A stretch of 64,000 bases of DNA from a halophilic archaeon SHRA6 (GTDB taxonomy: Archaea; Halobacteriota; Halobacteria; Halobacteriales; Haloferacaceae). The stretch lies in the NCBI GenBank assembly GCA_005239175.1, contig ML241294.1, positions 631,275 through 695,274 on the forward strand. Direction: 5' to 3'. This document shows, one piece after another, positions 24,733 through 60,983 of the stretch (positions are counted from its first letter, which is position 1; each line of letters starts with the position of its first letter). The position numbers and the translations under genes were made by a program. The notes below the pieces were generated by a model. It had not been told where the DNA came from and did no database searches. It was given only the letters and a program-made list of their open reading frames with translations.

Positions 24733-24805
24733 GGGCGCGTAGCTCAGTGGACAGAGTCCTTGGTTCCGGACCAAGATGCCGCGGGTTCAAATCCCGTCGC
24801 GCCCG
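24733..24805 (+). tRNA. tRNA-Arg (anticodon CCG)
   Basis: A complete cloverleaf: acceptor GGGCGCG pairs with CGCGCCC (24798-24804) and G is the discriminator base; the D arm lies in gctcagtggacagagt; the anticodon stem is cttgg/ccaag with loop ttccgga, giving anticodon CCG; the T arm is gcggg-ttcaaat-cccgt. No CCA is encoded. No intron is seen. It lies at the boundary between GC-rich core DNA and the AT-richer island. Confidence 0.95.
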
Positions 24806-29791: not shown

Positions 29792-32398
29792 GTGGTTGCG
29801 CACTGTAGAGGCGTGCCTATTCAGCGCGCTAAACCGGTCGAACAACTCTATGAGGAAGCCTCAGAGTACGAGTTGATCCTCACCCCAGACGCACCATTGG
29901 CGAGCGCGATCAATCGTCGAGTGGATGTACCACAGTTCGGCACATTTGCGACAACTCCTCGTCGATTTGCGGCAGGCCGTCGAGAACAAGCAGAGGACCG
30001 AACCGCGTTTTTAGAAGTTGTGCAGCAAACTGACCACGATTGGAAGTCAGTGAGTTACGCCATCGGGAATATCCTACAGTGCTGGGAGCATCAAGGGACC
30101 ATTGAGTCAATTCTTGAGTATGATGCGTATGTTGATGAGGTAACCCGAGATGTCGTTGACATCATGGCAGATCTCCGATCGACATCACAATCACTCACTG
30201 AGTGTTCCATCGATACGGAGTCTGTCGCAGTTGTCGGCGGAGAGCAGTTGACGACATTAGAGCAGAGCGTCCTCCCTGACGAATACGATCAAATTGAGTT
30301 ATTCACCGCTGAGTCGTTCGCGTACCCCTCGTTCAATATTTTCGACTCATCAGCAGATATTGTGCGTGCGATTCTCGACACCGTCACGCCCGATACTGCA
30401 GAGAACGTTGCTATTGTATTGGATGCCAACAGCCGGTACTCCTCGCTTATCGAAGCTGGGTTGGAAGCCGCCGACATCCCGTATTATGGTGGACCAGGAT
30501 TCATTGACAACCCACACCATCGTGCGTTCCTTAATCTCTGCCGGACTGCGTTCCGCGGCTCGGAAACGACCGTCGGAGATGTGAAGCCAACGCTGACGCA
30601 GATGGGTGTGGATGTCCCGATCGATCACGACAACAAGCGACTGTTTGAGGTTGATCTCCCAGCGACGACGTGGGTGACTGAGTTTTGCACGTCACTGTCT
30701 GATGTGACATTTTCAGCGGCACTCACCGAATATGCATCTGAGACAGGGGAACCGTTAGACGCATTCCGAGAAGAGCTATCTCGGTTAGGGCTGTTACACA
30801 GTCGCGTTCGTCAACACAAAATCAATGAGCTCACGTATTATTTCCAAACCTACGAGGTCCCAGTGGATCGTGAGAATGAGGGTGTCCTCTTGGCTGATGC
30901 AAAATCGTCAGGGTATGTTGATCGGCCTGTTGTGTTCCATCTTGGGATTGATGAAGCGTGGACACACAGTGCGCCACAGCGACCATGGGTAGATACCGAC
31001 GCACAGTTTCAGCGATATCTCAACCAGTTTCAGCTGCTTCTGCAAAGCGGTGTTGAGCAATACTATCTCGTGCAGGACACACAAGGCGGACAGCCAGTCA
31101 CGCCGTGTCTGTATTTTAACGAGTTACTCGATACGGATTATGAGCGATTTAGTGACTTGAATGCCGTTAGACACCGGCGATCGTACGACACAGACACAAC
31201 CGGGTTTGCGAAAGAGCCGATCGATGTTGTTCCGGAGTCGGTAGAAGCAATCAGCCAATCAAGCCTCAACAAGTACGTCAACTGTCCCCGGGACTACTTT
31301 TTCAGTCGATTAGTCGATAATCCGGACCAGGATTACTTTGTAGAGGGCAACCTGTTTCACGACTTCGCAGAATTTTATGTAAATCACCCGGATGCCGTTG
31401 ATGCAGCTGTCCTGACCGAGATTATCGAGGTCATGCTCACGGAGGCACGGTCGCTCACGTCCGATACGGACGAGCCGCTACGCCGCCGTACGTACCGCAT
31501 TGGGCTTGAGACGATTATCGAATACTTGGATGCTCATGGTCCGGTAGCCGATGACTTTCTCACGCCGGCCACTGGGTGGGGTAACAATTACTTCGCAGAC
31601 TATTTCGATACGCCGGTAGACTCGCCGCTCACTGAGCGGTGGTTTGAGGATACAGCGCTCGGAATGAAAGGCAAGATCGACCTGATCAACAGCCCGAACC
31701 AGCTACTTGATTTCAAAAGCAGTCGCAAGAAGTCCAAACGCGATGTGATCAAACAATCGGCTATTGACCCGCCACACGACACACCAAACTATCAGGCGGC
31801 AATGTACCTCTGCCACTTCCGGACCGTTCAGCCTGACGAGCGTCTGCAGTTCACGTTCTTCCACTTTCTTGAAACGCTTGATGATGTCATCGCCGGCGAC
31901 GCCAACCTAGACGATACGCTCACAACAGTGGCGTACTATCCGTGGTCGTTCGACGAGCATATTCGTTCACGCACCGCCTACGAGACGCTGCTTGGCGGGT
32001 ACAACGACTGTGTTGAAACGTTCGAGGACCTAGGATTCGAGGCATACCACGATATCCTGAGTGAACTTTCATTCCCCGACAGCACAGTCAAATCCGAACT
32101 CCGCGAATCAGACTTTGCGGCAGCGTTTACGACTGCAGTAGAGAACCACACGTCTGCCAGTGTTAACGCTGAAAAAGGCTGTGACCAAGCGATTCGGGCG
32201 CTCAACGGCATTCGGAAGGATACGTTCTTCAAACCCGATTTAGACGCAATCGAAGCATTCGTCGCCGACAGGATTACAGAGCTCAATGAGTACCGTCGCG
32301 GTAACGGTCGATTCCCGGTCAACGGGCTGGGGGGCGAGCCAAATTACCGGCGAGTGGATAACCGTGATCTCATTCTTACGGAGGTGAGCAATGACTGA
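29792..32398 (+). CDS. AddB-like PD-(D/E)XK nuclease (inactive-helicase type)
   Basis: An 868-residue protein resembling AddB/AdnB partners of RecBCD-like complexes. The first 470 residues have a helicase-like organisation without a visible Walker A motif. The C-terminal nuclease domain begins SQSSLNKYVNCPRDYFFSRL (about 489-508), includes GNLFHDFAEFYV, and has its active-site strands in GKIDLINSPNQLLDFKSSRK (about 627-646; Asp and Lys). No iron-sulfur cysteine set is evident. A GTG at 29792 or at 29813 (VPIQRAKPVEQL) could start it. It overlaps the helicase gene by 8 bp, so the two proteins are probably made in step and form a complex for DNA-end processing. Confidence 0.82.
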   Translation: MVAHCRGVPIQRAKPVEQLYEEASEYELILTPDAPLASAINRRVDVPQFGTFATTPRRFAAGRREQAEDRTAFLEVVQQTDHDWKSVSYAIGNILQCWEHQGTIESILEYDAYVDEVTRDVVDIMADLRSTSQSLTECSIDTESVAVVGGEQLTTLEQSVLPDEYDQIELFTAESFAYPSFNIFDSSADIVRAILDTVTPDTAENVAIVLDANSRYSSLIEAGLEAADIPYYGGPGFIDNPHHRAFLNLCRTAFRGSETTVGDVKPTLTQMGVDVPIDHDNKRLFEVDLPATTWVTEFCTSLSDVTFSAALTEYASETGEPLDAFREELSRLGLLHSRVRQHKINELTYYFQTYEVPVDRENEGVLLADAKSSGYVDRPVVFHLGIDEAWTHSAPQRPWVDTDAQFQRYLNQFQLLLQSGVEQYYLVQDTQGGQPVTPCLYFNELLDTDYERFSDLNAVRHRRSYDTDTTGFAKEPIDVVPESVEAISQSSLNKYVNCPRDYFFSRLVDNPDQDYFVEGNLFHDFAEFYVNHPDAVDAAVLTEIIEVMLTEARSLTSDTDEPLRRRTYRIGLETIIEYLDAHGPVADDFLTPATGWGNNYFADYFDTPVDSPLTERWFEDTALGMKGKIDLINSPNQLLDFKSSRKKSKRDVIKQSAIDPPHDTPNYQAAMYLCHFRTVQPDERLQFTFFHFLETLDDVIAGDANLDDTLTTVAYYPWSFDEHIRSRTAYETLLGGYNDCVETFEDLGFEAYHDILSELSFPDSTVKSELRESDFAAAFTTAVENHTSASVNAEKGCDQAIRALNGIRKDTFFKPDLDAIEAFVADRITELNEYRRGNGRFPVNGLGGEPNYRRVDNRDLILTEVSND

Positions 32399-35267
32399 AC
32401 CGACACCGAATTCACAGCAGCGACAGCTGATCCACAGTACTGACGGCATATACGTTGTTGATGCGGGTGCGGGCACCGGGAAAACGTTCGCTGTCACTCG
32501 TCGCTACGCACGCATTGTTGAGCAACCAGGCGTGGAACCAGAAGACGTTCTGTTAGTGACGTTCACCCGGAGCGCTGCGACCGAAATGAAAGAACGCATT
32601 GTTGAGCACTCGACGTACTCCCTCCGCGAATTAACTGAAGGCTCGATACAAACGTTCCATTCTCATTGCTTCGATCTATTACGTGAACACGGGCATCACG
32701 CCCCGACACATCTCGGGCTTTCTGAACGCATTACCGACTCAACACGTGTCGTTGAGGACGATCTCGTCGAGAATGACCGCTTCGCGGAGTTCATTGATGG
32801 ATTCCGTGACGATCACCCTGAGTATACTGATTTCTTCCGTGTGTTGTCTTCTCCACGCAACCTGCTCAATATCGTCTCAGAACTTGCTGCAAAAGGAATC
32901 TTTCCCACAGCGACCGGATGGTATCGAAATGGCGAGGACGCGCTTGACGGTGATTTTGACGCGTTCAAGCGGCTCTTCGAGGACGGTAATCAGCCACGAA
33001 ACGGCGGGAGCAAGCAGTCAAAACTCCGGGGTAAACTCAGTCGATTCGGACGAAACAAGACGTATCTTCCTGATGCCCCAGCTAAATCTGAGATCAGAGG
33101 TAGCAGGACAAAACAGGTTCCCGACAGCGTCGCTAGGCGTGTTTTCGAAGAAGATCGAGAGGATCTCAAAGCGTTTATTCACGACATCTACTTCGAATAT
33201 CTTGACTTCGCACTCAGCCGGAACTACCTCACGTTCGGCTTCCTGCAGCTCTTCGCCTTTGTCCTCTTATGTGAAGACGACTCACTCAGAGACCGCGTTA
33301 GTTTCGAGTACGTGATGATCGATGAGTTCCAAGACACGAGTGAGATCCAATTCAAACTCGCGCTCTTGTTCGCCGAAACAGACAATATCTGCGTTGTCGG
33401 GGATTGGAAACAAAGTATCTACTCGTTTCAGTACGCTGCTGTCGAGAATATCCGTGAATTCGACGATCGAATCAAGCGGTTTACCGCTGAGCTCAACGCC
33501 GATCGGACTCGAATCTCCTTTGACATCGACGACAGTACCAGAATTCCTCTCACCGAAAACTACCGTTCGACACAAACGCTGCTTGACTTTTCCGAAGAAG
33601 CACTCATAACGCCGGGCAGCAAACACGATGATGTCGATCGATCGGTACTCGAAGAGATTGACTCGTTGTCCGCCAATGCTGCGTTTGACAATACGCATAT
33701 CGAGGGGATAGCCCATGCCGATCAACATGAGGCGGTCCTCTCTACCATCCAAGATATTGTTGGGGCCGAAGCATACGCTGTCGAAGGCGATGACGGCGAG
33801 CCACGGCCGCCAGAATATGGAGATATTGCAGTCCTGACCCGAACCCGCGACTTCGGCCGAGAACTGCTGTCGGTGGCAGAGACGTATAATTTCCCGATGG
33901 CGTACGATGGCGGGATTGAACTCTTCAGAACGAACCAGGCGAAGATTCTGCTCGCGTGGCTGCGGATTCTTACGGCTGATGCAGACCGTGGCTGGGCAGT
34001 CGTACTCGAACACGCAGGATACACACTTGATGAGGTTGATCACATCATCGACACTGGTGGGTATCCTGACAATATGATCGCGTTCAGGGACGACCTCCGT
34101 GAGCGAGAATCCGTTGGTGCTGTCGCCCGGGCGGTTTTCGATCGATACGGATACACCGGCGAATACGCGGATGTCATCCTCCACACGATACAGTCCGTCC
34201 ACAATGGGTCAACACAGACGCTCGGAGACTTGATTCGGTATATCGAACGCGGGATCGAACAGGGAAGTACGCACGACATATACACGAGTGCTGGTGTGAA
34301 TTCGGTCACAGTTCAGACGATTCACTCTGCAAAAGGGCTTGAATACCCGATCGTTGTGCTCGCTAACATGAATGCCGGGAAATTCCCTCCACGTGGAGGT
34401 CGATCGGGCGTGATTCAATTCACCGAACCGCTCGGCATTCGCCAGCGAAAAACGTACGCCTCGGTTGCAGATCATCCCCACGTCTACGACAACTGGCGGC
34501 ACGACATTAGCCGTCATTGTCTGTCTCGTGACTACGATGAGGAACGACGACTGCTCTACGTCGCTATCACTCGTGCTGAAAATCACGTTATTTTTGCGGG
34601 CGGCGAGGAGCCAAACACGTTCTATGAGGAACTGCCATTCACACCTCGTCCCACGGACACCACGATTGACGCCGCTGACCAGCCAACGACAACGCAGGCG
34701 CAACTCCCGTTCTCTATCGTGCCATCAGATGGTCCGATCGGCCATACGCCACACACGCTGATGGATAGTGATGTGTTTGCAACAGATGAGATCCACATGG
34801 AGTCAGTAGAGTTCCGGGGTCAAGACTTCGGATCACGGGTCCACGACTTCGCCGAGGCCTACGCACTCGGGGAGGATGTCTCTCCAACGACTAGCGATGC
34901 TGACGACGAACAACACGTCAAAGCGTTCATTGACTCCCTCTCCGGCGATCTACACGTCGAAGAACGAGCAGTGCTCCCGCTTGAGGTGAATGGCGAGCAA
35001 GTGACTGTCTCTGGGATCGTCGATCTTGTCCACGAGACACCAACTCGCATTGAAATCATTGACTACAAAACCGATCAGACACGACGCGCCGAAAAAGAAT
35101 ACTGCAAACAGCTCAGTGTGTACTACCACGTCCTCACGGACTGTTTCCCAGATAAGGAGGTAACGGCCAGCATCTTCTATACGGCGACCAATGAACGACA
35201 GCACATTGATCCACTCACACACGAGCAACTACGCGATCTAATCAGAGCAGTGGAAGCAGGAAAATAA
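32391..35267 (+). CDS. AddA-like UvrD-family helicase-nuclease
   Basis: A 958-residue SF1 helicase with a C-terminal nuclease. Walker A is GAGTGKT (26-32); motif Ia is LLVTFTRSAATEMKERI; Walker B is DEFQDT (311-316); motif III is VVGDWKQSIYSFQYA; motif V is TVQTIHSAKGLEYPIVVLAN; motif VI is EERRLLYVAITRAENHVIFA. The C-terminal RecB-like nuclease has an IIDYKTDQ strand near 888-895. This order equals AddA/RecB-type enzymes. With the overlapping AddB-like gene it would unwind and degrade DNA from ends, for recombination or for destruction of foreign DNA. Confidence 0.88.
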   Translation: MTEPTPNSQQRQLIHSTDGIYVVDAGAGTGKTFAVTRRYARIVEQPGVEPEDVLLVTFTRSAATEMKERIVEHSTYSLRELTEGSIQTFHSHCFDLLREHGHHAPTHLGLSERITDSTRVVEDDLVENDRFAEFIDGFRDDHPEYTDFFRVLSSPRNLLNIVSELAAKGIFPTATGWYRNGEDALDGDFDAFKRLFEDGNQPRNGGSKQSKLRGKLSRFGRNKTYLPDAPAKSEIRGSRTKQVPDSVARRVFEEDREDLKAFIHDIYFEYLDFALSRNYLTFGFLQLFAFVLLCEDDSLRDRVSFEYVMIDEFQDTSEIQFKLALLFAETDNICVVGDWKQSIYSFQYAAVENIREFDDRIKRFTAELNADRTRISFDIDDSTRIPLTENYRSTQTLLDFSEEALITPGSKHDDVDRSVLEEIDSLSANAAFDNTHIEGIAHADQHEAVLSTIQDIVGAEAYAVEGDDGEPRPPEYGDIAVLTRTRDFGRELLSVAETYNFPMAYDGGIELFRTNQAKILLAWLRILTADADRGWAVVLEHAGYTLDEVDHIIDTGGYPDNMIAFRDDLRERESVGAVARAVFDRYGYTGEYADVILHTIQSVHNGSTQTLGDLIRYIERGIEQGSTHDIYTSAGVNSVTVQTIHSAKGLEYPIVVLANMNAGKFPPRGGRSGVIQFTEPLGIRQRKTYASVADHPHVYDNWRHDISRHCLSRDYDEERRLLYVAITRAENHVIFAGGEEPNTFYEELPFTPRPTDTTIDAADQPTTTQAQLPFSIVPSDGPIGHTPHTLMDSDVFATDEIHMESVEFRGQDFGSRVHDFAEAYALGEDVSPTTSDADDEQHVKAFIDSLSGDLHVEERAVLPLEVNGEQVTVSGIVDLVHETPTRIEIIDYKTDQTRRAEKEYCKQLSVYYHVLTDCFPDKEVTASIFYTATNERQHIDPLTHEQLRDLIRAVEAGK

Positions 35268-36463: not shown

Positions 36464-39400
36464 ATGATTACTGATGCTCTCAAGTACCCTATCACGGGTG
36501 ACGACTCTCTGAAAACTCTGATAATCGGATCATTTCTGATAGTCGGATCGGTGCTTGTTCTTCCTCTGTTCGTCTTGTTGGGCTTTTTTATTAGAACCGT
36601 AGGGAATGCTATCGACGGCGATGCACCGCCACAGTTTGAGCAGTATGGTAGTTTGTTTGTTGAGGGGGTGAAGCTCACTGCAATCCTGCTCACGTATCTA
36701 AGTGTCTTCTTGGCATTGGTTGTAGGTCTTGTCTCGTTGACCGGACCGACTAGTAATGCGGTAGTTCTTTTTGTCTTATTCTTGTTTTTCGGTTTTATTT
36801 ACGTCGTGATATCGGTTGTATTTCAGTTCTGTCGGCGACGGCAGATGCGCGACGCGTTTGCTGTACCCGCGATCCTCAGAACCGCGTTCAGCCTCCGCTA
36901 TCTTTTCCTCGTCCTGCTTTGGATGTTCGCAATTCTAATCCTCTTGACGATCGGTCAGGAACTTTTGACCGTGACGACCGTCGGCATTCTCGCTATCCCT
37001 GCACCATTAATGTACGCGTTTGTCGTGTACGCGAAGTTGATCTCTAGCCTATCTGGCCCAATAGAAACGGGGTCTGACGACAATCTCGATAACCTATCGA
37101 ACACAACAGAATCGAGGTCTGACGACAATCTCGATAACCTATCGAACACAACAGAATCGAGGTCTGACGACAATCAAATTACAGCTGAGAAAATCAAAAA
37201 TTACCGGCAGGAAACACTCCCAGCTGTAGGTAGTTACCGAGAGGAGGTGACAGGAGCATGGGAATTAGTAACCAACGTGTATCAGGGAACGAGTAATCAG
37301 CTTATTCAAAAACATTCCGTGGAGCTAAGTGAAACACAGCAGACTCCTGTGGAAATACCACCATCCGAGGCCGGCTATGACCAGTACCCAGCAACAGCCA
37401 AACCAATTGATCACTACGATTCTTTAGAAGCATACATAGACGATGCCGATGAGGCCATATCACTAGAAAATGACGCCCTAAATCTAATTGACTGGCTTTT
37501 ATCTAACCCGGTAGATGAATTTCTCTATGAAGAAGAGAAACAAAGGCTACTGAAGGCACAGGAACTATTCACTCACTCAGTTGAACAGGGTGAGGAACAG
37601 ATAGAGAACATACGAAACCACCGTCGAGACTCTCTACAAACTCTCAGTGGCCGCGCTGAAGCATGCAAGCGGGAACTTGAACAATTAGAAACACGTGCCG
37701 AGCCGTACCTGAGTCTGAACAAGTATCTGCGTGATGATGACCTGCTTGACGACGCCGAATTATTAGACGCGAAGATTTCGAATATCTCCACAAACCTACC
37801 AGCGGCGGAAATGGTCTCTCACCCTGTACTTGATCGACCCGAAAAACTGGGAGAGCGCACCGCTCAACTCATAGAGAAGCTCAAACAGTCACGGGGTAAA
37901 TACCGGGAGAGACAATCAAAAAATCTCACTAAGCGTGTCAAAGTCTGTAAACGGGAACTTGAGCAGTTAGAAGCGCGTGCTACACCCTACCGAGATCTGA
38001 ACGAGCCTCTGAGTGACAATGATCTGCTTGATGCTGCCGAGTCATTGGACGCCAAGCTATCCGATATCACAGAATTACTCTTGTCGGCCGAAATAACCTC
38101 TCATCCCGAAGCTGATCAATTGCAAGAGCTGACTGACCGTACCGCTCAACTCACTGAGAGCCTCAAACAGTCTCAAGTCAAGTATGCTGAAAGACAACTG
38201 AAATCTCTCAGTGGGCGTCTCTGGGCCTATGAAATAGAAATTGGACAATTAGAAGCGCGTGCTAAGCCGTACCTGAATCTGAGCAAGTATCCGTATGACG
38301 ACGATCTGCTTGCCACTGCCGAGATACTAAACGTCGAACTCTCGAATATTTCTATGACGATCTCGTCAGCAGAAGTGACATCTTATCCCGAGGCTGATCG
38401 ATTGCAAGATCTGAAACAGCGTGTTTGCCAACTTATAGAGAGTGTCAAACGCTCACGAGTCGAATATGCAGAGAGGCAACTGAATTTCCTGCAGTCGTCT
38501 ACCCAGAACGCAATCAACGAGATTCAGAGACAACTACAGCCAGCAAAAAAGAGAGGAGATCCAATCAAATCTCCGGATGCACTAATAAATAACATCGAGG
38601 AAATTCGAAACGATCTCAGCGAATTCCATGATGAGTCGTTTTTTATTTATCTCAGCAGCGAGCAACTCGACGAATTATCAACTCATAAAAAGGAATTAGA
38701 TGAGTCCGAAGAGTTCATCAAGGAAAAGACACGGTTCGATAAGCAGTTTAGGCAGTGTTGGCAGGTCTTCAATAAGTTACGCTCTGACGCTCAACCATAT
38801 CTCGATTATGACAAGTATTTAACTCAACCCACACATGATGACCTTGTCAACCGTATCAGGAGTATCAAAACAAAGCTAAAGTTCCTCAGTAAAAAAATTC
38901 AGTTCCGTATTTTAGCTCATAGCGACTCTGAGCGTTTCAGACAACTTCTAGATGATCTAAACAGTCTTCGATCCCACCTACAGGATTACAACACTGACTT
39001 CGTACGACGACAACGTCAGGAGTGTAGGTCATTCTTTACTGATATCGGGCCATCAAATATTGATCTTACTGCAGAACAAGAGCAAGCAGTTATTCGAAAC
39101 GGAATTTATAATCAAGTCATCGCGGCAGCAGGTACAGGTAAAACACTCGCACTCACGACACGTGTAGCATACCTAATTAATAAACAGGATATCAAACCCG
39201 AGCGGATACTGGTAGTTACCTACCTGAACGAAGCAACGGATGAAATGGAAACCCGCCTCGAAGATCATTTTGATATTACTGATGTTAAGATTAAGACGAT
39301 CCACGCCTTCGGACGAGAAATTATTCAGGAAACAAGAGACGGCTACGTCGAAAGTATTGAGTCTCATCAGACGTTGAATCTTATTGATCGGGAGATCCGA

Positions 39401-41074
39401 GAAGCACGTATACACCAGGATAAGGAGTTCTTAGACCACTATTACGAATTCCTCGTTCATTTTGATGATGTGTATTATGAAGAGGAAGATTTTGACACAA
39501 AAAGAGAGTATGTGAAGACGCGTGCTGAACAGGATTATACAACACTTCGGGGAGAAGAAGTCAGGTCGAGAGCGGAAAAATTAATTGCGGACTTTCTGTT
39601 CACTCACCAAGTTGACTACCGGTACGAAGAGATGGCTACATGGGCAGAAACTGCACCAGACAAAGGCGAGTACGATCCGGATTTTTACCTCCCAGAATAC
39701 GACATATACATCGAACACTGGGGAATCGATGAGTCAGGATTGGTCGCTCCTTGGTTTTCATGGTCGTCGTCTGAATACCATGATAAAATGGATTGGGCCC
39801 GAGGCGAATTTGAGGAGAGTGACCACACACTGATAGAAACGTATGAGTTTGAACACGAAGCTGGTCGATTGAAGCAGTCCTTGCGTCACCGCCTCTCAAT
39901 AAATGATGTAGAGATGACTCGGATGGATTTCAATGAGCTGACCGAGGCGGTATTTGAATATGAGCGACAAGACAAAAAAATAAGAGAGGAATTCCGTGAG
40001 TTTATCACGAACGCCAAACGATTCAACGTCACGCCGAACGAAATAAAGGCAAATCTCTCACCCAAAAATCCTCGACAATACCACTTCGGGCACTGTGGTA
40101 TTCATATGCTCCGGCAATATCGCCGATTTTTGGCGCAAAATGGGCTGATCGATTTCATCGACATGGTCCAAGACGCTGTCAAGATAATCCAAGATCACCC
40201 AGAGGAGTATAAAGACAGGTACGATCACGTCTTAGTAGACGAATTTCAGGACATCGGGAAAGGCACACTAGAATTGATTCAGGAGTTGACAGGGCCGGAT
40301 ACAGCGAAGTTGTTTGCTGTTGGTGACGACTGGCAAAGCATTTTCTCGTTCCGAGGCGCGGTAATCAAGTATTTCACCGAGTTTGAAGAGTACTTTGGTA
40401 CACCAGTTCGGACCGATCTCACAGCAAATTTCCGATCGCCATCTCGCATTGTTACGGCCGGAAATCAACTGATTCAGAATAATGACGGCCAGCTGAAAAA
40501 GCAGGTCAGGTCAACAGTCAACAGACAAACGACGCCGCGAGTACACAGGCTACAGGGTTACACGAACTACAAATACCTCCGCAGTGTCCGAGATTACACC
40601 TTGGATCTCGTTCAACAGTATTTAGCTCAAGGTGCGTCCCCCTCTGAGATTATGATTCTCTGCCGGTACGATGACGCTGCCCAGTATTTGTATGAAATCA
40701 GGCAAGGTCTTGAATCAGAGGACATTCCATATGTCGGAAGGTCTGGCCAGTATCGGGGTCCAACTGGCCAGGCTGACCATGGGGCTGCGGTCTATTCGCT
40801 CTACAAAGCCAAGGGCAGGGAAGCAAAGCACGTGATTCTGGTACATGCAGCGGAAGGCCGATATGGATTCCCGCGTATGAACGGGGAATCTGAATTAATA
40901 GACCCTGTGCAACCAATCGATATCGGTGGATTAGAGGAAGAACGTCGGGCATTCTACGTAGCGATAACACGCTCAAAACAGACACTCGACATTCTCACCC
41001 GAAACAATCAGGAATCACGGTTCATAGACGAGATTGCAGACTATACTAAAACCGTCGACGCAGAGAAGATATAA
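36464..41074 (+). CDS. Membrane-anchored SF1 helicase: DUF4013, coiled-coil repeats, helicase-IV-like core
   Basis: A 1536-residue fusion. Residues 1-205 are a DUF4013-type membrane domain beginning MITDALKYPITGDDSLKTLI, with about five transmembrane helices. A linker with a 15-residue repeat follows. About 230-870 is predominantly coiled coil, including three 94-residue repeats (394-487, 488-581, 582-675) opening LSGRAEACKRELEQLETRA and equivalents. The SF1 helicase starts near 870: Walker A AAGTGKT (888-894), KTIHAFGREII, Walker B DEFQDIGK (1259-1266), VGDDWQSIFSFRGAVIKYF, and ERRAFYVAITRSKQTLDIL at the end. Between them (about 1051-1088) is an insertion EYDPDFYLPEYDIYIEHWG like that of helicase IV, suggestive of a PD-(D/E)XK-derived module. 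The helicase would work tethered to the membrane. Confidence 0.82.
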   Translation: MITDALKYPITGDDSLKTLIIGSFLIVGSVLVLPLFVLLGFFIRTVGNAIDGDAPPQFEQYGSLFVEGVKLTAILLTYLSVFLALVVGLVSLTGPTSNAVVLFVLFLFFGFIYVVISVVFQFCRRRQMRDAFAVPAILRTAFSLRYLFLVLLWMFAILILLTIGQELLTVTTVGILAIPAPLMYAFVVYAKLISSLSGPIETGSDDNLDNLSNTTESRSDDNLDNLSNTTESRSDDNQITAEKIKNYRQETLPAVGSYREEVTGAWELVTNVYQGTSNQLIQKHSVELSETQQTPVEIPPSEAGYDQYPATAKPIDHYDSLEAYIDDADEAISLENDALNLIDWLLSNPVDEFLYEEEKQRLLKAQELFTHSVEQGEEQIENIRNHRRDSLQTLSGRAEACKRELEQLETRAEPYLSLNKYLRDDDLLDDAELLDAKISNISTNLPAAEMVSHPVLDRPEKLGERTAQLIEKLKQSRGKYRERQSKNLTKRVKVCKRELEQLEARATPYRDLNEPLSDNDLLDAAESLDAKLSDITELLLSAEITSHPEADQLQELTDRTAQLTESLKQSQVKYAERQLKSLSGRLWAYEIEIGQLEARAKPYLNLSKYPYDDDLLATAEILNVELSNISMTISSAEVTSYPEADRLQDLKQRVCQLIESVKRSRVEYAERQLNFLQSSTQNAINEIQRQLQPAKKRGDPIKSPDALINNIEEIRNDLSEFHDESFFIYLSSEQLDELSTHKKELDESEEFIKEKTRFDKQFRQCWQVFNKLRSDAQPYLDYDKYLTQPTHDDLVNRIRSIKTKLKFLSKKIQFRILAHSDSERFRQLLDDLNSLRSHLQDYNTDFVRRQRQECRSFFTDIGPSNIDLTAEQEQAVIRNGIYNQVIAAAGTGKTLALTTRVAYLINKQDIKPERILVVTYLNEATDEMETRLEDHFDITDVKIKTIHAFGREIIQETRDGYVESIESHQTLNLIDREIREARIHQDKEFLDHYYEFLVHFDDVYYEEEDFDTKREYVKTRAEQDYTTLRGEEVRSRAEKLIADFLFTHQVDYRYEEMATWAETAPDKGEYDPDFYLPEYDIYIEHWGIDESGLVAPWFSWSSSEYHDKMDWARGEFEESDHTLIETYEFEHEAGRLKQSLRHRLSINDVEMTRMDFNELTEAVFEYERQDKKIREEFREFITNAKRFNVTPNEIKANLSPKNPRQYHFGHCGIHMLRQYRRFLAQNGLIDFIDMVQDAVKIIQDHPEEYKDRYDHVLVDEFQDIGKGTLELIQELTGPDTAKLFAVGDDWQSIFSFRGAVIKYFTEFEEYFGTPVRTDLTANFRSPSRIVTAGNQLIQNNDGQLKKQVRSTVNRQTTPRVHRLQGYTNYKYLRSVRDYTLDLVQQYLAQGASPSEIMILCRYDDAAQYLYEIRQGLESEDIPYVGRSGQYRGPTGQADHGAAVYSLYKAKGREAKHVILVHAAEGRYGFPRMNGESELIDPVQPIDIGGLEEERRAFYVAITRSKQTLDILTRNNQESRFIDEIADYTKTVDAEKI
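37073..37174. repeat. 45-bp tandem repeat inside the membrane helicase gene
   Basis: Two perfect 45-bp units (37073-37117, 37118-37162) and 12 bp of a third, encoding SDDNLDNLSNTTESR twice plus SDDN. The repeat is in frame and lies in the linker between membrane domain and coiled coil. The perfect identity shows it is recent; copy-number variation would lengthen or shorten the tether. Confidence 0.95.
37643..38488. repeat. Three 94-residue coiled-coil repeats
   Basis: Units of 282 bp start at 37643, 37925 and 38207. Each encodes a RELEQLEARAxPY-like helix, a DDDLLDxAExLDAKLS segment and a TSHPEADRLQxLxxRTAQL segment ending in KYAERQ. The units have diverged more than the 45-bp repeat. They form a rod-like spacer before the helicase. 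Confidence 0.85.
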
Positions 41075-41498: not shown

Positions 41499-43463
41499 AT
41501 GCAAACCGATCTTGATCCGCAGTGGACCACACCACCTGCAAGCGGTCGAATCATCAATCCTACTGGTGCGGTAACTGTCCGAGATCGGAGTTTTAATCGG
41601 CTTATTTACCCTGTCTTGAGTAACGCAATAACGCATCGACTCCGCTACGCATCATTTTGGTGCTGGGTCATTGCCAACACAGACGGCCTGTCTACGGCAG
41701 AACAGAGTAAATACGAGAAGATTCTGCTGTTTGCCAGTAAGTACCACCAGTGTGAGGAGCATGATGGACTTGGAGAGCGTGGTCTCGTTGGCGCGGGAAG
41801 AGCTGTGGAGGCACTCCCAGAAGAGCATCCACGATCTGATGCTGAAGACGTTACTGTTGAAGAATTCTACACCCCAAGCGTCGATCCGATACCGCTCTCG
41901 TCTGCGTATACCCAACTAACGAATACAAACGGCAGCGGCTTTGAGAACTATTATCGAAGTTGGCTCATACGTCTCTTTCTCATACAAGACAGTACGACCG
42001 TAACGTCAATTGGGGCCAGACTGGCAAATGCCTATGCGGAAGCTCATAGCGTCTCCTGGGACAGATTTGAACAGGCAGTGGAGAACAACGCAGCGCCACA
42101 AGACCTGATTCAGGACTTTGCCGGGAATGGGTGTATCTGTTCGCTATCGGACCCCGAACGAGAAATTTGTCATCGAGTCTGGCTTGGGTTGATTAATCGA
42201 GAATCCACGTATGATGATCTGGGCCTTTCTACGGCCCCACAAGAGCACCTAATGGTGACAACAGTTGAGCCGTTTTTAGCCCGGCGAAATGCCGGAGACG
42301 GATCAACACCACAGATCGGTGCGGAATTTTTGCAACGTGATGATACAGATTCCGATCCCGAAACGAGTCTAGAGCGGTACGTCGAATATGGACTTGATGT
42401 GCACATGCGTGCGTCACAATTGCTGTTTTTGCATAGTGCACACGTCGCACCTCTCGATACGCGAGTTGCCGATTCGTCGGACCATCCACTCACCGAGATT
42501 CAGACGCTTTGGCGATTCCATATCCAATCAGAGCAATTCGCGTGGACTGTAGAATCGCTGTTGGGGATGTTCCTTGATACCCTCCGAGCGTTCGAGCCGT
42601 GTCGCGTTGACGAAGTTCTAACCCAAATGACCGCGGACCCAGCGTTCACACAGGCAGTGGAAGACGCCCTTGGTGGTATCGAGACCGTCTGGGTAGATGG
42701 GTCTGCGAACACGTTTGATGAAGCCCAACTCGGTATCCTCTACGGGACGAACACGACCAGCGAAACAACAGTCGAATCTACCGACGAGACGCAGGACCCA
42801 CCCAGCTCATGGAGTGATCTCGTCACCGCAGTCACTGGCCGCGCCGAAACTGACGATCCGTTCGATCGAAACGCCTTATCAGAGTGGCAGTTGCAGCGCA
42901 AAATTGCGGCGGTACGATCGGATACTAGCCGCTCGCCAGTTGAGCGAACTGCAAGCGCCTGCGGGTATGCGGCAGTCTTGCTGGCTCGGTTCCAAAGCCG
43001 GTACGAGGAGTACTACACTCGGGATGCTCTGAGTGGGTACCGGCAGTGGTTCGCTGAAACCGTACAGTACTCACAGGTGCCACCGAATATTCAGATGCTC
43101 TGGTATCCGGACGAATACTTCTCTATCGACCAATCGGCCCCAATCAGCGCAGGGATGAGAATCTTGATCCAAGAGTGTATGCTCAGGCCCTACCTCGATC
43201 GGCTCTACGACCGAATGGAGTCCGGAAAGATACCGCAGCACTTCACCGTTGATGGGACTCGTAATCTCCGGTTCGAGCGATCGTACCCGTCTGCCGACCG
43301 GTCATTCTACCCGAACCCCGCCCTGTCGAGACTGAAATGGCAACGCAACTGGGACACACTATTTGAATTGGACTTCGTGTCCTCACATCGCCCCAGAGAC
43401 TTCCACGTAACCACAACTGGCGAACAGTTACTGTCACATGTCTTGGGAGGTGCCATGCCATGA
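41499..43463 (+). CDS. Unknown 654-aa protein coupled to PLD nuclease
   Basis: No family is assigned. The N-terminus contains TGAVTVRDRSFNRLIYPVLS and HRLRYASFWCWVIANTDGLS, a conserved-looking helical segment; the middle carries CICSLSDPEREICHRVW, and near the end are YRQWFAETVQYSQVPPNIQM and GMRILIQECMLRPYLDRLYD. The protein is soluble and acidic. Its stop overlaps the next gene's start (ATGA, 43460-43463), so it is translationally coupled to the phospholipase-D-like nuclease and probably forms a complex with it. An AT-rich promoter (atcatatatattacaaaat) precedes the ATG at 41499. Confidence 0.8.
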   Translation: MQTDLDPQWTTPPASGRIINPTGAVTVRDRSFNRLIYPVLSNAITHRLRYASFWCWVIANTDGLSTAEQSKYEKILLFASKYHQCEEHDGLGERGLVGAGRAVEALPEEHPRSDAEDVTVEEFYTPSVDPIPLSSAYTQLTNTNGSGFENYYRSWLIRLFLIQDSTTVTSIGARLANAYAEAHSVSWDRFEQAVENNAAPQDLIQDFAGNGCICSLSDPEREICHRVWLGLINRESTYDDLGLSTAPQEHLMVTTVEPFLARRNAGDGSTPQIGAEFLQRDDTDSDPETSLERYVEYGLDVHMRASQLLFLHSAHVAPLDTRVADSSDHPLTEIQTLWRFHIQSEQFAWTVESLLGMFLDTLRAFEPCRVDEVLTQMTADPAFTQAVEDALGGIETVWVDGSANTFDEAQLGILYGTNTTSETTVESTDETQDPPSSWSDLVTAVTGRAETDDPFDRNALSEWQLQRKIAAVRSDTSRSPVERTASACGYAAVLLARFQSRYEEYYTRDALSGYRQWFAETVQYSQVPPNIQMLWYPDEYFSIDQSAPISAGMRILIQECMLRPYLDRLYDRMESGKIPQHFTVDGTRNLRFERSYPSADRSFYPNPALSRLKWQRNWDTLFELDFVSSHRPRDFHVTTTGEQLLSHVLGGAMP

Positions 43464-45970
43464 AGCTGCTCCGTGAACTCGATGCAGAAGATCGCTCCGT
43501 GACGGGAACTATCGCTACCACATACACGTTCGGGGCGCGATTCTTCGAATCACAGCTGCTTGATGCGTTCGCCGATCGTCACAACAGTCGGAATACGATT
43601 GTTGTAATTGACGCAGATACTTACGAAGACACGCTGAATCCCGAAACCGACGCTACTGAATTCCATCAGACGGCATACCCAAAGGCAGCAGGCAGCCGAT
43701 ACTATCTCGCGCCGGCCGACAGTGGGAATGCCACGTTCCATCCAAAAGTCGTGTTCCAAGCCGGTGAAAAGCGCGCGAATGCGGTGATCGGCAGCGCAAA
43801 TCTAACGCAGCAGGGCTACACGAGCAATCGAGAGATTGTGACTTCGGTTGCTACCGAAGCTGAAACCACAGACACCGAAGCAGCAGCCCTCCTCAATGAC
43901 TGCCGATCGTATCTACAGCAGTTGGCCGATCATCCTGCCACAGCAACGTGGAGTAGAATCACAACAAACCGATACCAGCGCATTCTCGACGATAGTAGTT
44001 GGCTCGAAGACGCTACCCCTCCGACGCATCGTGAAACGCAGCTCTTGCATAATCTCGACAGGCCACTTCTCACGCAACTCAGAGACAGTATCGACGCACA
44101 CGGAGAACAGATACAGTCTGTCGATATTATCACGCCATTCTATGGAACCGGATTGGCAGTTCCGAGAACGTTCACTGACGACGGGATCGAGACGACACTC
44201 TATCTCCAAGATACGGACACACAAATCGAGCTTGATGAGCTGTCTACCTGGTTAGAAGAGCCAAATGCGCAGGCAGTACGCTTAGACGCCGATCGATACG
44301 TCCACGGCAAACTACTGCTGATCACAACAGATGCCGCAACGTACTGTTTCAGTGGAAGCGCCAACGGATCGTACTCTGCTCTCTTACAGACAGCCGGCTC
44401 ACCGCAGCGCTCTGGTGGAAATCACGAGGCCGGGGTCCTGAGTCGGACACCCTCTGACACACACTTTACGTACCTCCTCACCAGCGAGCACGTACAGGCA
44501 TCCGACCCGATTGATGCGGAAACGTTCACGCCCGGTGTGTTAACCGAATTTGAGGATCGAGCCGATACTGCTGACTCTCGTGATAAGCCGACTATCTGGC
44601 CGCCCATTGTCACCGTTCATCAGCGCGCCCACGGCGGTCCACGGGTGACTGTCAGCGTGAAGATCGACGCAAATGAGATTGATCTCCAACGCACATCGAT
44701 CACCCTCGAACTATCGCAGCTAAGCACCGAAGAGCACACAACGTTGTCTTTTCATCCAACCGATCGAATACGTCGAAAGCTGACGACTGAGACCGAGACT
44801 GAGACAGACGACGACCACGACTCGTACAACCGACACCGATACTCCAAGACGGTCCACAATCCGGCGGTTCAGACGTTGGTAAAGCGGGGTTGTCGTGCCC
44901 GAGTCTGTGTCGATACCACAGATGACGATCAGATACACTCAGGGTATCGGTGGGTCGAAACCACGCCACCAGATGACAGCGCGGCGGGTGGTGACGCCGG
45001 GTCTAGAGCTGGGACCGATACACTGCCACAGACCATGACCGACCTGTTCTTGCTCGATGATATCGATCAACGAGAGAACATCCTTGCGTCAATCAACGGC
45101 ATGATCGGCGATATGCGAAATGCCCCTGACGATGTGACTACTACGCAACCGGATCCACCGGGAAACCAAGCCCAAGATGGGATCCGTGTACGAGCATGGG
45201 ACTCTGCCTCGCGGAGTTCGAATCGCAGCAGTGCCATCTCGACATGCTATGATGAGTGGTTAGAAGATATGACTAAATTATCTAAGGTGCGAGCGAATCC
45301 CGATACCGCATTCGACGCCGTCGCCGCACGTGTCCGAGCGATCAATCAGTGCAACATCCAACTTATCGCACTCAGGAAGTCTGGGATCGGTGATAATCTC
45401 CCGTCCGACCTCCCTACAAAAACCACGAATCGATTGTATACCGCGACTGAGTATGGTGAGTTAGCGAGCAGGCTTCATTGGTTTCTCACAAATGGCACAA
45501 GTGTTGTTGAGGAAACGACTACCGAATCGAGCACGTCAACGGACACAGTCTACACTTGGTGTCAGGAAGATATCCTTCCACAGATTATCGTTGGCGCACT
45601 CATCGGTGAGTACCAACTTGCGTCCTCAACCGAGGAATACTCGCGGTATTTCAGCAGATCATTCGAACGCTTGGCACTCGACTGCTTCCCAACCACGTCA
45701 TCATTCGCACACTGGGCAACTACAGACACACTCGATATCACGCTCGGAGCGGTACGTGACACGATCTCGCCGATCGTTGACCAACTCGATCGATATGAGT
45801 ATGCCACATATCTCCCATTTGAGTTCCGCGACACGACCAAAGTAGATGATGCCACACTACGGTTCCTCGGCCGGACGCTCGCAGAGGCCAACGAGATAGC
45901 AACCTACGAAACGATCGGCGATCACCATTACAAATTGCTCCAATACGCAGGGGGTGCCACATCCCGCTAA
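43460..45970 (+). CDS. Phospholipase-D-like nuclease
   Basis: An 836-residue protein with two PLD half-sites in its first 310 residues: FHPKVVFQAGEKRANAVIGS followed by ANLTQQG (His94, Lys96) and YVHGKLLLITTDAATYCFSG followed by SANGSYSAL (His282, Lys284). The HxK...GSAN pattern is that of PLD-type nucleases such as those in restriction and DISARM-like systems. The C-terminal 500 residues are mostly helical and unassigned, with a low-complexity acidic stretch near 455. Coupled to the upstream 654-aa gene by a 4-bp overlap. Cleavage of nucleic acid is likely; lipid hydrolysis is less likely for a soluble acidic protein in this context. Confidence 0.85.
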   Translation: MKLLRELDAEDRSVTGTIATTYTFGARFFESQLLDAFADRHNSRNTIVVIDADTYEDTLNPETDATEFHQTAYPKAAGSRYYLAPADSGNATFHPKVVFQAGEKRANAVIGSANLTQQGYTSNREIVTSVATEAETTDTEAAALLNDCRSYLQQLADHPATATWSRITTNRYQRILDDSSWLEDATPPTHRETQLLHNLDRPLLTQLRDSIDAHGEQIQSVDIITPFYGTGLAVPRTFTDDGIETTLYLQDTDTQIELDELSTWLEEPNAQAVRLDADRYVHGKLLLITTDAATYCFSGSANGSYSALLQTAGSPQRSGGNHEAGVLSRTPSDTHFTYLLTSEHVQASDPIDAETFTPGVLTEFEDRADTADSRDKPTIWPPIVTVHQRAHGGPRVTVSVKIDANEIDLQRTSITLELSQLSTEEHTTLSFHPTDRIRRKLTTETETETDDDHDSYNRHRYSKTVHNPAVQTLVKRGCRARVCVDTTDDDQIHSGYRWVETTPPDDSAAGGDAGSRAGTDTLPQTMTDLFLLDDIDQRENILASINGMIGDMRNAPDDVTTTQPDPPGNQAQDGIRVRAWDSASRSSNRSSAISTCYDEWLEDMTKLSKVRANPDTAFDAVAARVRAINQCNIQLIALRKSGIGDNLPSDLPTKTTNRLYTATEYGELASRLHWFLTNGTSVVEETTTESSTSTDTVYTWCQEDILPQIIVGALIGEYQLASSTEEYSRYFSRSFERLALDCFPTTSSFAHWATTDTLDITLGAVRDTISPIVDQLDRYEYATYLPFEFRDTTKVDDATLRFLGRTLAEANEIATYETIGDHHYKLLQYAGGATSR

Positions 45971-54029: not shown

Positions 54030-55370
54030 TCATTCCTCATCTGATGCACCCACTTTGGTGATGAGATTCCCAAACTGCTGTAGCAAGACTTTCGCATTCT
54101 CTATGGTCGTTGTTGGCTGGTAGTGACCGTCTTTGTATGCTGCCAGTTGGATACTCGGGTGGGCCAAGAGATTGAGCGATTGCTCTATGACATGCTGCTC
54201 TGGGACGCGCTCCGATTCATACATTCCTTTCAGTATCAATCGGAGTCGGTCAGCCGTTCCTTCTTCCGGATCTGCCCGCTGCAGCGCTTCCATTACGGCT
54301 AACAGATCCTCAGTGCCACTCAGCCGCGTCCCCAACTCATCATCAATCTGATCGAGCCGGTCATCTTGGAATGCCCCCGGTTCGATGAGATAGTGTGCGA
54401 ACTTCTCCGGCGGGATCCCATACATCTCACGTCGTTCCAAGAGTCCTTGTAGATGATCGGTCGCAAGCAAGACGATGCCTTGTCGATTGGCATCTTCAAT
54501 CGCAGCCGGCGTAAACCCAGGCGCAACAACGATCGCATGATCTGCGGAGTGTCGCTCTTTGTGCCCCTGAATCCGGGTGGCATCCGGCGATGCTAACGTC
54601 CCGCTGGTTCGTGCCTTCACCTCAACAACCGCGTGAATCGGGGCTGTAATCTCGACATCTGTATCATCTCCACCTTCAATCCACCGTGCTTCAAATCCCA
54701 GTCGAGAGAACGCCTTTGCGACGAGTTCCTCCAACACCTCATATTGGGTTCCATCCTGACTCGCCGTCACAATCTGCTCGCCCAAATCCGGTGTACCCTC
54801 TTCAGATTCTACCTCTGATGATTCCTCGTCGAATTCGTGAACGCGGACACCACTCCCAGTTAATTCGTTGATGGCTGTTTCAATAGATTCATATCGATCT
54901 TCGATTTTCCGAACTCGTGCATCCGAGACGCGGCTAAATCCTTGTGGAATATAGTTCTCCTTGTACCCTGTGAGCTGATTGAATGACTCAACATCTACAT
55001 CGATCTCTTCGAGACCGGTCAAGAAAATGAGATACTCCCACGGGCTCTCAGGATTCCAATTCCCCTCAGTACGCCAGAGGTGCTCCGCCAACTCACGATT
55101 ATCGTGCGTCCGCACAACCGTCGCCTGCGCGATGTACCTCCCATCGCGGTAAATTAACGCGATGTCTCCTCCCTCAACGAATTGCCACTTCGAATCAACT
55201 GATGTCCCCCATAGATGTACATTTCCTGTCTCTGAATCAGTCAGGGCATCAATCTCATCGTCAGACAGATATCTCTCAAATTCTGCCGGGTCATGCCCAT
55301 CTTTCACCGACTGCAGGTAGTCCTGATATGCTTCCTCACGCCCAGCGGTGATAATCGCAATGCCCGTCAT
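54030..55370 (-). CDS. EVE-like / Mrr modification-dependent restriction protein
   Basis: A 446-residue protein. Residues about 53-120 (VHLWGTSVDSKWQFVEGGDI, then ALIYRDGRYIAQATVVRTHD) fit an EVE/PUA-type domain, which recognises modified bases. Residues about 205-290 are an Mrr-like PD-(D/E)XK nuclease: YEVLEELVAKAFSRLGFEAR, DDTDVEITAPIHAVVEVKAR with Asp238, Glu250, Lys252, and HAIVVAPGFTPAAIEDANRQ. The C-terminal 130 residues are helical. Joining a modified-base reader to an Mrr nuclease points to type IV-like restriction of modified phage DNA. The ATG at 55370 starts MTGIAIITAGREEAYQDYL. Confidence 0.8.
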   Translation of the reverse strand: MTGIAIITAGREEAYQDYLQSVKDGHDPAEFERYLSDDEIDALTDSETGNVHLWGTSVDSKWQFVEGGDIALIYRDGRYIAQATVVRTHDNRELAEHLWRTEGNWNPESPWEYLIFLTGLEEIDVDVESFNQLTGYKENYIPQGFSRVSDARVRKIEDRYESIETAINELTGSGVRVHEFDEESSEVESEEGTPDLGEQIVTASQDGTQYEVLEELVAKAFSRLGFEARWIEGGDDTDVEITAPIHAVVEVKARTSGTLASPDATRIQGHKERHSADHAIVVAPGFTPAAIEDANRQGIVLLATDHLQGLLERREMYGIPPEKFAHYLIEPGAFQDDRLDQIDDELGTRLSGTEDLLAVMEALQRADPEEGTADRLRLILKGMYESERVPEQHVIEQSLNLLAHPSIQLAAYKDGHYQPTTTIENAKVLLQQFGNLITKVGASDEE

Positions 55371-58577: not shown

Positions 58578-59651
58578 GTGCCAGATGAACGCCTACTCAA
58601 AGGAACCGAAAGGGGCCTCTTATTACGGCCTTTTCAGCGCATGGGTTTGGTGCGCGGCTGGTTATGCAAAAATCCGTTGTCATACTACCTAAGAGAGGAT
58701 GAGGAGCCGATTTATCTGTACGATACGACAAATCCGATTATAGTGAGTCGTGACAGTTCACGGCAGGAACTGTTCCCTGATGGTCGATATCGGTCTATGA
58801 TTGCATATACAGACGAACGATTGCTTGCTGTAGTCGGACAGAAACCAAATAATCAGATCGTTTCGGCGTCTTGGAATCATATTGATTCATTTTCAATTGA
58901 ACCTGAATCACTAAAAACGGATTTCGACAACTCAAGCGAACCTAGAGAACCCGCATCCAAGGTTAGTTTTGAATTCAATACCTCCGAGCGGACAATTCGG
59001 TTTGATTCTATTACCGAATATAATGTTACAGAGATATTGGATGATGTATCTTCATTCCTATCCAAACAGACTAATATTGAAGATTGGGGTAACAAAGAGG
59101 AGTGGAAAGTGGCGAGTGCCAGCTATCAGAATGCGAAAAAAGAGTACAAAAGAAAGCAAGAAAGAGAACGGCGAGAGCGAGAACGGAAACAGAAACAATA
59201 CCAGAGGCTTGCAGCACAAGCTAGGGGAAATTCGGTAACTGCAGACATAGTTGAGAAAGTTATAACTGAGCTACAAGAAAGTGAAGTGCCGGAATTTTAT
59301 GCACAAGGTGAACAGCACTACCATGAGATAAAACATCGTGAATCTATAGGTCCACAGGAGGTGAGCAACCTCTACTGGGTTCTGTTCACTAATGAACGGG
59401 TGATAATTCAATCGTCTACAGACACGTGGAGAATCCCGTATACTGAATTTCAACGAATTGAAGCTGCAGAATACGAGGATACAACAGAAGTAACTCGTTC
59501 AGAGCAAGGAGAAAATCGTACTATTGAGGAAGCAATCACGAAGAGACGTATTGAAATAGAGACATCAGTCGGTATACATCTTGTAGACATCGAGGATATA
59601 TCCCAACGAGAATTAACTGAACTACTGAAATATGTCCGTCAGCATATGTAG
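58578..59651 (+). CDS. Bacterial-PH-like and coiled-coil protein
   Basis: A 357-residue protein with a PH-like region on each side of a coiled coil. The first (about 40-165) contains YRSMIAYTDERLLAVVGQKP and the pattern WNHIDSFSIEPES; a highly charged coiled coil follows (about 175-220, KKEYKRKQERERRERERKQK); the second (about 245-355) contains YWVLFTNERVIIQSSTDTWR and IPYTEFQRIEAAEYEDTTEV. bPH domains bind membranes or proteins; haloarchaeal members are known as helix-linked domains of unknown role. A GTG at 58578 starts it. Confidence 0.65.
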   Translation: MPDERLLKGTERGLLLRPFQRMGLVRGWLCKNPLSYYLREDEEPIYLYDTTNPIIVSRDSSRQELFPDGRYRSMIAYTDERLLAVVGQKPNNQIVSASWNHIDSFSIEPESLKTDFDNSSEPREPASKVSFEFNTSERTIRFDSITEYNVTEILDDVSSFLSKQTNIEDWGNKEEWKVASASYQNAKKEYKRKQERERRERERKQKQYQRLAAQARGNSVTADIVEKVITELQESEVPEFYAQGEQHYHEIKHRESIGPQEVSNLYWVLFTNERVIIQSSTDTWRIPYTEFQRIEAAEYEDTTEVTRSEQGENRTIEEAITKRRIEIETSVGIHLVDIEDISQRELTELLKYVRQHM

Positions 59652-60257: not shown

Positions 60258-60983
60258 TTATTTCGTCTCAATCCATTCTCCCCAAAATTCCTCATGAGGG
60301 TCATAAATTGTTGACCCAGCGTAATTCCCTCCGTGCGCTTCTAAATGACAGTCGAAGCACAGCGTAGCCAAATTTGTCTCTGTTGACTCACCCGGAATTA
60401 TATGATGCACTTGGAGATCGACATTCTCAAACGAGCTACACCGAACACATCGATAGTTATCCCGAGACAGTATCTGTTCTCGAATTGCCGCTGAAACCGG
60501 CTCTGAGCGCCCCCACTCTGTATGGCCAGTCAATACCTGATACACGTATCGTCGATTGGCATCAACAGCCTCAACGATATGACTGACTGGTGCATGATAT
60601 CGCCGTCGGAGCTCTTCGATTTGCCAGCTTTTCGGGATCTTATACTCTTCGTCAAATACTGCAAGACGCTGCTCAAGATACGATCGTAACACCTCTGGGG
60701 GTGCAACACCAGGATGTTCAAGATCGTATCGACGGATCCAATTCGTTATCGTCTGCTCAGTTACGCAACACCACTCAGCGATGACGGAAACAGGAATATA
60801 GTTCGAGAGTTGCTCAGCTAACCACTCCTCATCCGTATATGGCGTAATTGAGTGCTTCTTGATCCACCGTTCGATCGTTTGTGTCGTCACACCACATCGA
60901 ATTGCAATTTGCTCCGGAGATTTACCGGCCCGAACTTCTCCCTCTAACCACTCTTTGTCTCTGTACCGTCTGGCGTCAACCAT
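60258..60983 (-). CDS. HTH-repeat protein with C-terminal HNH nuclease
   Basis: A 241-residue protein. The first 90 residues contain two homeodomain-like or resolvase-like HTH units (GKSPEQIAIRCGVTTQTIER and NYIPVSVIAEWCCVTEQTIT), the middle a helical linker with YHAPVSHIVEAVDANRRYVY (a third HTH), and the C-terminus an HNH domain (YRCVRCSSFENVDLQVHHII followed by LATLCFDCHLEAHG). A sequence-specific nicking or cleaving nuclease is plausible, as in homing endonucleases or phage-defence HNH enzymes. It is convergent with the TBP-like gene. Confidence 0.82.
   Translation of the reverse strand: MVDARRYRDKEWLEGEVRAGKSPEQIAIRCGVTTQTIERWIKKHSITPYTDEEWLAEQLSNYIPVSVIAEWCCVTEQTITNWIRRYDLEHPGVAPPEVLRSYLEQRLAVFDEEYKIPKSWQIEELRRRYHAPVSHIVEAVDANRRYVYQVLTGHTEWGRSEPVSAAIREQILSRDNYRCVRCSSFENVDLQVHHIIPGESTETNLATLCFDCHLEAHGGNYAGSTIYDPHEEFWGEWIETK

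Follow-up and report, generated by a model that had tools for sequence, protein, structure and literature searches.

A single open frame in the window analyzed here (the whole stretch of haloarchaeal DNA, 64,000 nucleotides) encodes P0001, in which a DUF4013 membrane module is joined through a linker and a long helical rod to a UvrD-like superfamily 1 (SF1) helicase with a nuclease-like insertion. This combination of parts is unique so far, and the same motor is membrane anchored several times across archaea and bacteria. The best explanation appears to be an island-borne, membrane-tethered helicase for defense against foreign DNA, to which we assign a probability of about 0.5. The features of the gene are as follows.

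36464..41074, + strand: single open frame of 1536 aa (P0001), in the order DUF4013, linker, helical rod, UvrD-like helicase with nuclease-like insertion
36464..37078, + strand: DUF4013 membrane module, residues 1-205 (Pfam PF13197, hydropathy, 44-49% identity to standalone DUF4013)
37059..37175, + strand: 45-bp tandem repeat, 2.6 copies; the acidic linker that it encodes lies precisely where DUF4013 meets the rod
37196..39028, + strand: helical rod, residues ~245-855 (~610 residues), from the sequence and from L031/L068 homology starting at ~255
37547..38491, + strand: three 94-residue tandem repeats in the rod, residues ~362-676 (self-comparison)
39059..41071, + strand: UvrD-like SF1 helicase, residues 866-1536 (Pfam, model; motifs GTGKT, DEFQD and VAITRSK intact)
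39518..39928, + strand: insertion, residues 1019-1155, endonuclease-I/Vsr-like PD-(D/E)XK, with E1038, D1073 and E1084 conserved
41072..41074, + strand: TAA stop codon, aligned with GAA (Glu) in relatives L031, L068 and L032
41075..41359, + strand: in-frame remainder of 95 codons, a C-terminal RPA-like OB domain separated from the main frame by the stop

Fusion frame, membrane module and rod

The P0001 frame runs from the ATG at 36464 to the TAA at 41072-41074 through 1536 uninterrupted codons. Pfam matches to UvrD-helicase (E 2.2e-48) and UvrD_C (E 4.6e-13), together spanning residues ~867 to 1510, lie in the same frame as the DUF4013 part and the rod, as expected from the original prediction of a one-gene fusion. 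A frame error joining two separate genes had been considered and was refuted. The alignment with standalone DUF4013 proteins reached residue ~204, and homology of the rod to the nearest helicase relatives (L031 and L068) set in at residue ~255 with the frame unchanged. Differences per codon position in the DUF4013 part (0.42/0.23/0.64) showed a coding-type constraint, and the helicase part retained a coding-type codon-position bias. Given the same-frame homology of the rod and the constraint on both parts, the DUF4013/rod junction is no frame artifact, and the fusion is almost certainly real, with the domain architecture described here. The position of the 45-bp repeat between DUF4013 and the rod indicates that the joint is an in-frame linker enlarged by duplication.

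The DUF4013 assignment held in a profile search, in which PF13197 matched residues 29-163 (E 1.5e-12; 48.1 bits for a gathering cut-off of 26.9). The Kyte-Doolittle profile displayed six peaks in residues 25-188, corresponding to five or six hydrophobic segments; segments were called by hydropathy alone in both P0001 and its relatives. Residues 1-205 are strongly hydrophobic, and a membrane location of P0001 is probable. The Arg-rich loop at 123-145 suggests that the C terminus of the module faces the cytoplasm.

DUF4013 had been described as usually standalone, and it was so in every case checked. The standalone proteins (~200 residues) share the domain with P0001 at 44-49% identity, but in the genomes searched they stop at the domain end without a fusion partner, whereas P0001 continues. 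No second DUF4013-helicase fusion was found in 391 genomes of the class and 170 of the family, two sets that overlap. Longer DUF4013 frames in G258, G141 and G288 were rejected as fusions, being spurious upstream extensions in high-GC DNA. IMG/VR yielded no viral DUF4013 relative, and a literature search on DUF4013 found nothing relevant; the repeatedly anchored helicase family would offer a first functional lead for this domain.

The rod is charged and helical in character over residues ~245-855. Self-comparison revealed a 94-residue period with a score of 484, compared with a maximum of 52 in 100 shuffles, and a degenerate unit related to the 94-residue repeats precedes the helicase, with its motif at ~779. 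The ~640-residue coiled coil proposed originally thus stood as a helical rod of similar extent but not as one uniform coiled coil, as it is a repeat-built spacer, partly made of the three tandem repeats, whose length varies among relatives.

Helicase core, nuclease-like insertion and OB tail

A structure model of residues 856-1536 (pLDDT 86.8) gave UvrD, PcrA and Rep as best Foldseek matches. Together with the two Pfam domains and the intact motifs, this fold supports the presence of a full SF1 helicase, as had been claimed. DNA helicase IV (HelD; NCBIfam PRK11054) was the best named family for P0001 and the relatives tested. However, P0001 scored 240.8 bits, below the cut-off of 543, whereas the Escherichia coli protein (L140) scored 1246, so that membership in helicase IV did not hold for the helicase part. 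In the tree, E. coli helicase IV groups within the family, but it has ~690 aa and lacks the membrane segment, the rod and the nuclease-like insertion, all three of which P0001 has. This protein (L140:9524-11596) is an insertion-less long branch inside an insertion-bearing family, which suggests that it lost the insertion, with the caution that long branches call for.

GajB of the Gabija defense system is also a UvrD-type helicase, but it has neither rod nor insertion, and its likeness to P0001 is that of the general UvrD core. No GajA (OLD nuclease) adjoining the helicase was detected among nine PADLOC-scanned genes of 28201-50178, and we rejected a Gabija identity for P0001, as the PADLOC GajB matches reflect generic UvrD similarity. 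To our knowledge, helicases of this superfamily are regarded as soluble, and our literature search for membrane-anchored UvrD or helicase IV proteins found none.

About 135 residues long, the insertion separates the Walker A region from DExQ; E. coli helicase IV has 52 residues at this place. What had been taken for a helicase-IV-like insertion is thus lacking from helicase IV and is nuclease-like; both this character and the cut-off OB domain had been overlooked in the earlier reading. Modeled alone, the insertion reached a pLDDT of 92.9. Foldseek matched the model to Vsr (1vsr), AbaSI, PvuRts1I and McrBC with weak E-values, the top rank being held by mitoribosomal proteins (best E 6e-3). A profile of 20 insertion sequences searched against the PDB returned T7-type endonuclease I (E 3e-4), and Pfam Phage_endo_I matched 10 of the 20 members (best E 1.9e-4). 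The pattern S..E, DF, Y.E was invariant in 20 aligned relatives, as were the metal-binding acid columns E1038, D1073 and E1084. The catalytic Lys of PD-(D/E)XK is absent, EHW or EHF replacing ExK, so that the position is mostly Trp or Phe, and Trp in P0001. The insertion therefore has the fold and the three acids in common with T7-type endonuclease I and Vsr, which are endonucleases of branched DNA and mismatches, but these enzymes have the catalytic Lys, whereas the insertion has Trp or Phe and lies inside a helicase. It probably recognizes branched or frayed DNA; that it cleaves DNA is possible but doubtful.

The haloarchaeal relatives terminate in an OB domain, recognized in L034 as replication-factor-A-like; the domain matches a solved 109-residue protein, 2kbn (E 3e-17). 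In P0001, the OB tail behind the TAA carries no further lesion and retains a third-position bias (0.34/0.30/0.70 and 0.30/0.25/0.72), which suggests that the stop codon either arose recently by mutation or comes from an error in the assembly. Loss of the OB domain to a nonsense codon may reduce the activity of this copy.

Membrane anchors in the helicase family

Sixty-one relatives carry the insertion motif. A membrane segment precedes Walker A in 10 of the 59 strict-motif relatives with a complete N terminus and in 7 relatives outside the strict motif, the anchored proteins coming from Bacteroidota, Clostridia, Acholeplasmataceae, Fibrobacterota, Methanolobus, Thermoplasmatota and Halobacteria. 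None of the eight helicase-IV-type proteins without the insertion has such a segment. We built a tree of 79 helicases by a short search, with SH-aLRT as the only branch support. The membrane label changed 7 times on this tree, 6 of the changes being forced by well-supported branches, compared with a mean of 16.5 for shuffled labels; membrane segments were gained or lost at least 6 to 7 times in the family. As this occurred repeatedly in distant lineages, tethering looks functional and not like a one-off accident. The proposal that a rod tethers the helicase to the membrane gains support from these recurrent anchors as well as from the strong hydrophobicity of DUF4013. The segments of the relatives often lie in the first 25 residues and are followed by basic residues, an arrangement that would put the helicase on the cytoplasmic side. 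No membrane segment is present in L031, L068 or L032, the three closest relatives.

Unnamed UvrD proteins of Natribaculum luteum, Halalkaliarchaeum sp. AArc-CO and Halorhabdus tiamatea have the same helicase, insertion and rod. The haloarchaeal insertion-rod-OB relatives are up to 66% identical to P0001 in the helicase, their N termini consist of a short amphipathic stretch, one to four membrane segments or a kinase, and, unlike P0001, they have the OB domain attached. Any match was present in 29 of 391 genomes of the class, with a helicase match in about 20 of those, and several relatives are located on megaplasmids. A viral origin was rejected, since the helicase relatives in IMG/VR share only some 30% identity in the helicase region.

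Island context and proposed function

The P0001 gene lies in a variable part of the genome with many defense-type genes. Behind a tRNA-Arg gene (24733-24805), the GC content falls from 63% to 42-54% and remains low until about 120 kb in extended coordinates, making an island of roughly 95 kb. An attachment repeat of the tRNA-Arg was sought and dismissed, the longest match of 14 bp being at chance level. The AddAB-like block is shared with the sister species G199 at 97%, but the window segment 35.3-45.5 kb is missing there, with ~2.3 kb of other DNA in place of the ~10-kb block that holds the P0001 gene. The neighbors of the gene are the following.

29792-32398, + strand: AddB-like gene, PD-(D/E)XK, upstream
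32391-35267, + strand: AddA-like helicase-nuclease, upstream
41499..45970, + strand: two overlapping genes downstream, of 654 aa (no family) and 836 aa (PLD domain), in the same variable block

Of the 391 haloarchaeal genomes searched, 156 have AddB-like genes, and the AddAB-like order beside the helicase is kept in L034 only. The linkage is therefore probably incidental, and the AddAB-like pair is probably not an obligate partner. The two overlapping downstream genes are possibly a two-gene defense system; the 836-aa protein (43460-45970, +) has an N-terminal PLD domain with weak similarity to ZacB, DrmC and PbeA. The same island also holds genes for an Mrr-type nuclease (54030-55370, -), an HNH protein with an HTH (60258-60983, -) and a bacterial PH-domain protein (58578-59651, +).

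Among the relatives, BrxC and PglZ (BREX) adjoin the closest one (L031), and the defense neighbors of others are DrmD-like (DISARM) at L034, PbeA-like at L041, NERD-UvrD at L043 and ietA at L046. As these neighbors vary by locus, no conserved operon binds the gene to one system; lacking a constant partner, it resembles a self-contained module carried by defense islands, in line with its context.

We propose the following model for defense against foreign DNA. The DUF4013 module would anchor the protein in the cytoplasmic membrane. Its UvrD-type motor, presumably a 3'-5' translocase, would work inside the cell, spaced from the membrane by the flexible linker and the rod. Branched or frayed DNA would probably be recognized, and might be cut, by the endonuclease-I/Vsr-like domain. 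Membrane attachment would bring the motor close to DNA that enters the cell or is bound to the membrane. The site of action suggested originally, DNA at entry, would fit this model. A defense role has about an even chance of being correct, as the case is weakened by the fusion being a singleton, by the lack of anchors in its closest relatives, by the severed OB domain and by the nonconserved Lys.

It is unlikely, but conceivable, that P0001 is instead a membrane-attached repair or recombination helicase that, like helicase IV, remodels recombination or replication intermediates of the cell's own chromosome, while its insertion would bind forks or Holliday junctions but not cleave them. The PRK11054 score (240.8 bits, helicase IV being the best named family), the resemblance of the insertion to a junction-resolving endonuclease I devoid of its Lys, and an RPA-like OB domain belonging to the family would all agree with such a role. 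However, a patchy presence (29/391 genomes with any match), a variable low-GC block beside nucleases and relatives with defense neighbors are unlike a housekeeping repair gene. It is rather improbable that the gene is decaying, i.e., that a horizontally acquired helicase with a lost N terminus captured DUF4013 by chance and that the later nonsense codon reflects an unneeded product. The singleton fusion, the closest relatives without a membrane part and a TAA replacing a conserved GAA before an otherwise intact OB domain fit this scenario, but the other 1536 codons are open, no helicase motif or insertion acid has been lost, the DUF4013 and helicase parts keep their coding-type codon-position bias, and the undamaged OB tail argues for a recent stop or an assembly error. 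A motor for DNA transfer (uptake or conjugation), whose helicase would pass DNA across the membrane or draw it away from there, is very improbable: an anchor plus a helicase on a spacer and the megaplasmid location of several relatives would suit it, but no conjugation, transfer or pilus gene was recognized near the P0001 gene, anchors of relatives differ or are absent, and there is no sign of a pore.

For the defense reading, Zorya (ZorAB with ZorCD or ZorE) offers a comparison of workings only, as it combines a membrane part that has an elongated cytoplasmic tail with a DNA-acting effector (PMC11890865). Zorya, however, consists of separate proteins with a MotAB-like ion motor, whereas P0001 is a single protein without such a motor, and ZorD belongs to another helicase type and carries an Mrr-like nuclease, P0001 being of UvrD type. 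No match to the MotAB-like motor genes zorA and zorB was obtained among the window genes scanned. A broader idea, which we consider tentative and somewhat unlikely, is that archaea and bacteria share an undescribed, widespread family of membrane-tethered UvrD-type helicase-nucleases, with a rod and an endonuclease-I-like insertion, which guards the inner membrane face against incoming DNA. Its anchors would be exchanged freely (single segment, hairpins or DUF4013), haloarchaeal members would have an OB tail, and in some lineages there would be coupling to protein kinases. With its recurrent gain or loss of anchors, a motor that houses a nuclease-like domain and a spacer made of repeats, the helicase family would open membrane DNA surveillance to experiments in haloarchaea or bacteria that are easy to handle.

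Several loci of the relatives have features of their own. A gene that by eye encodes a putative ADP-ribosylglycohydrolase lies a few kilobases from the helicase at L036:13100-14008, L037:13147-14055, L041:12831-13757, L042:14277-15185 and L045:4736-5674; PADLOC gave no match for the L036 copy. Kinase fusions are N-terminal in L046:8382-13139 (Pfam E 1.2e-26) and C-terminal in L067:10136-14104 (Pfam E 1.5e-30), and these two loci share a neighboring gene family, whose L046 member was tested and matched ietA in PADLOC. In L048:7292-10675, L051:7578-10724 and L052:7607-11002, an N-terminal membrane hairpin is followed by paired cysteines resembling a zinc ribbon.
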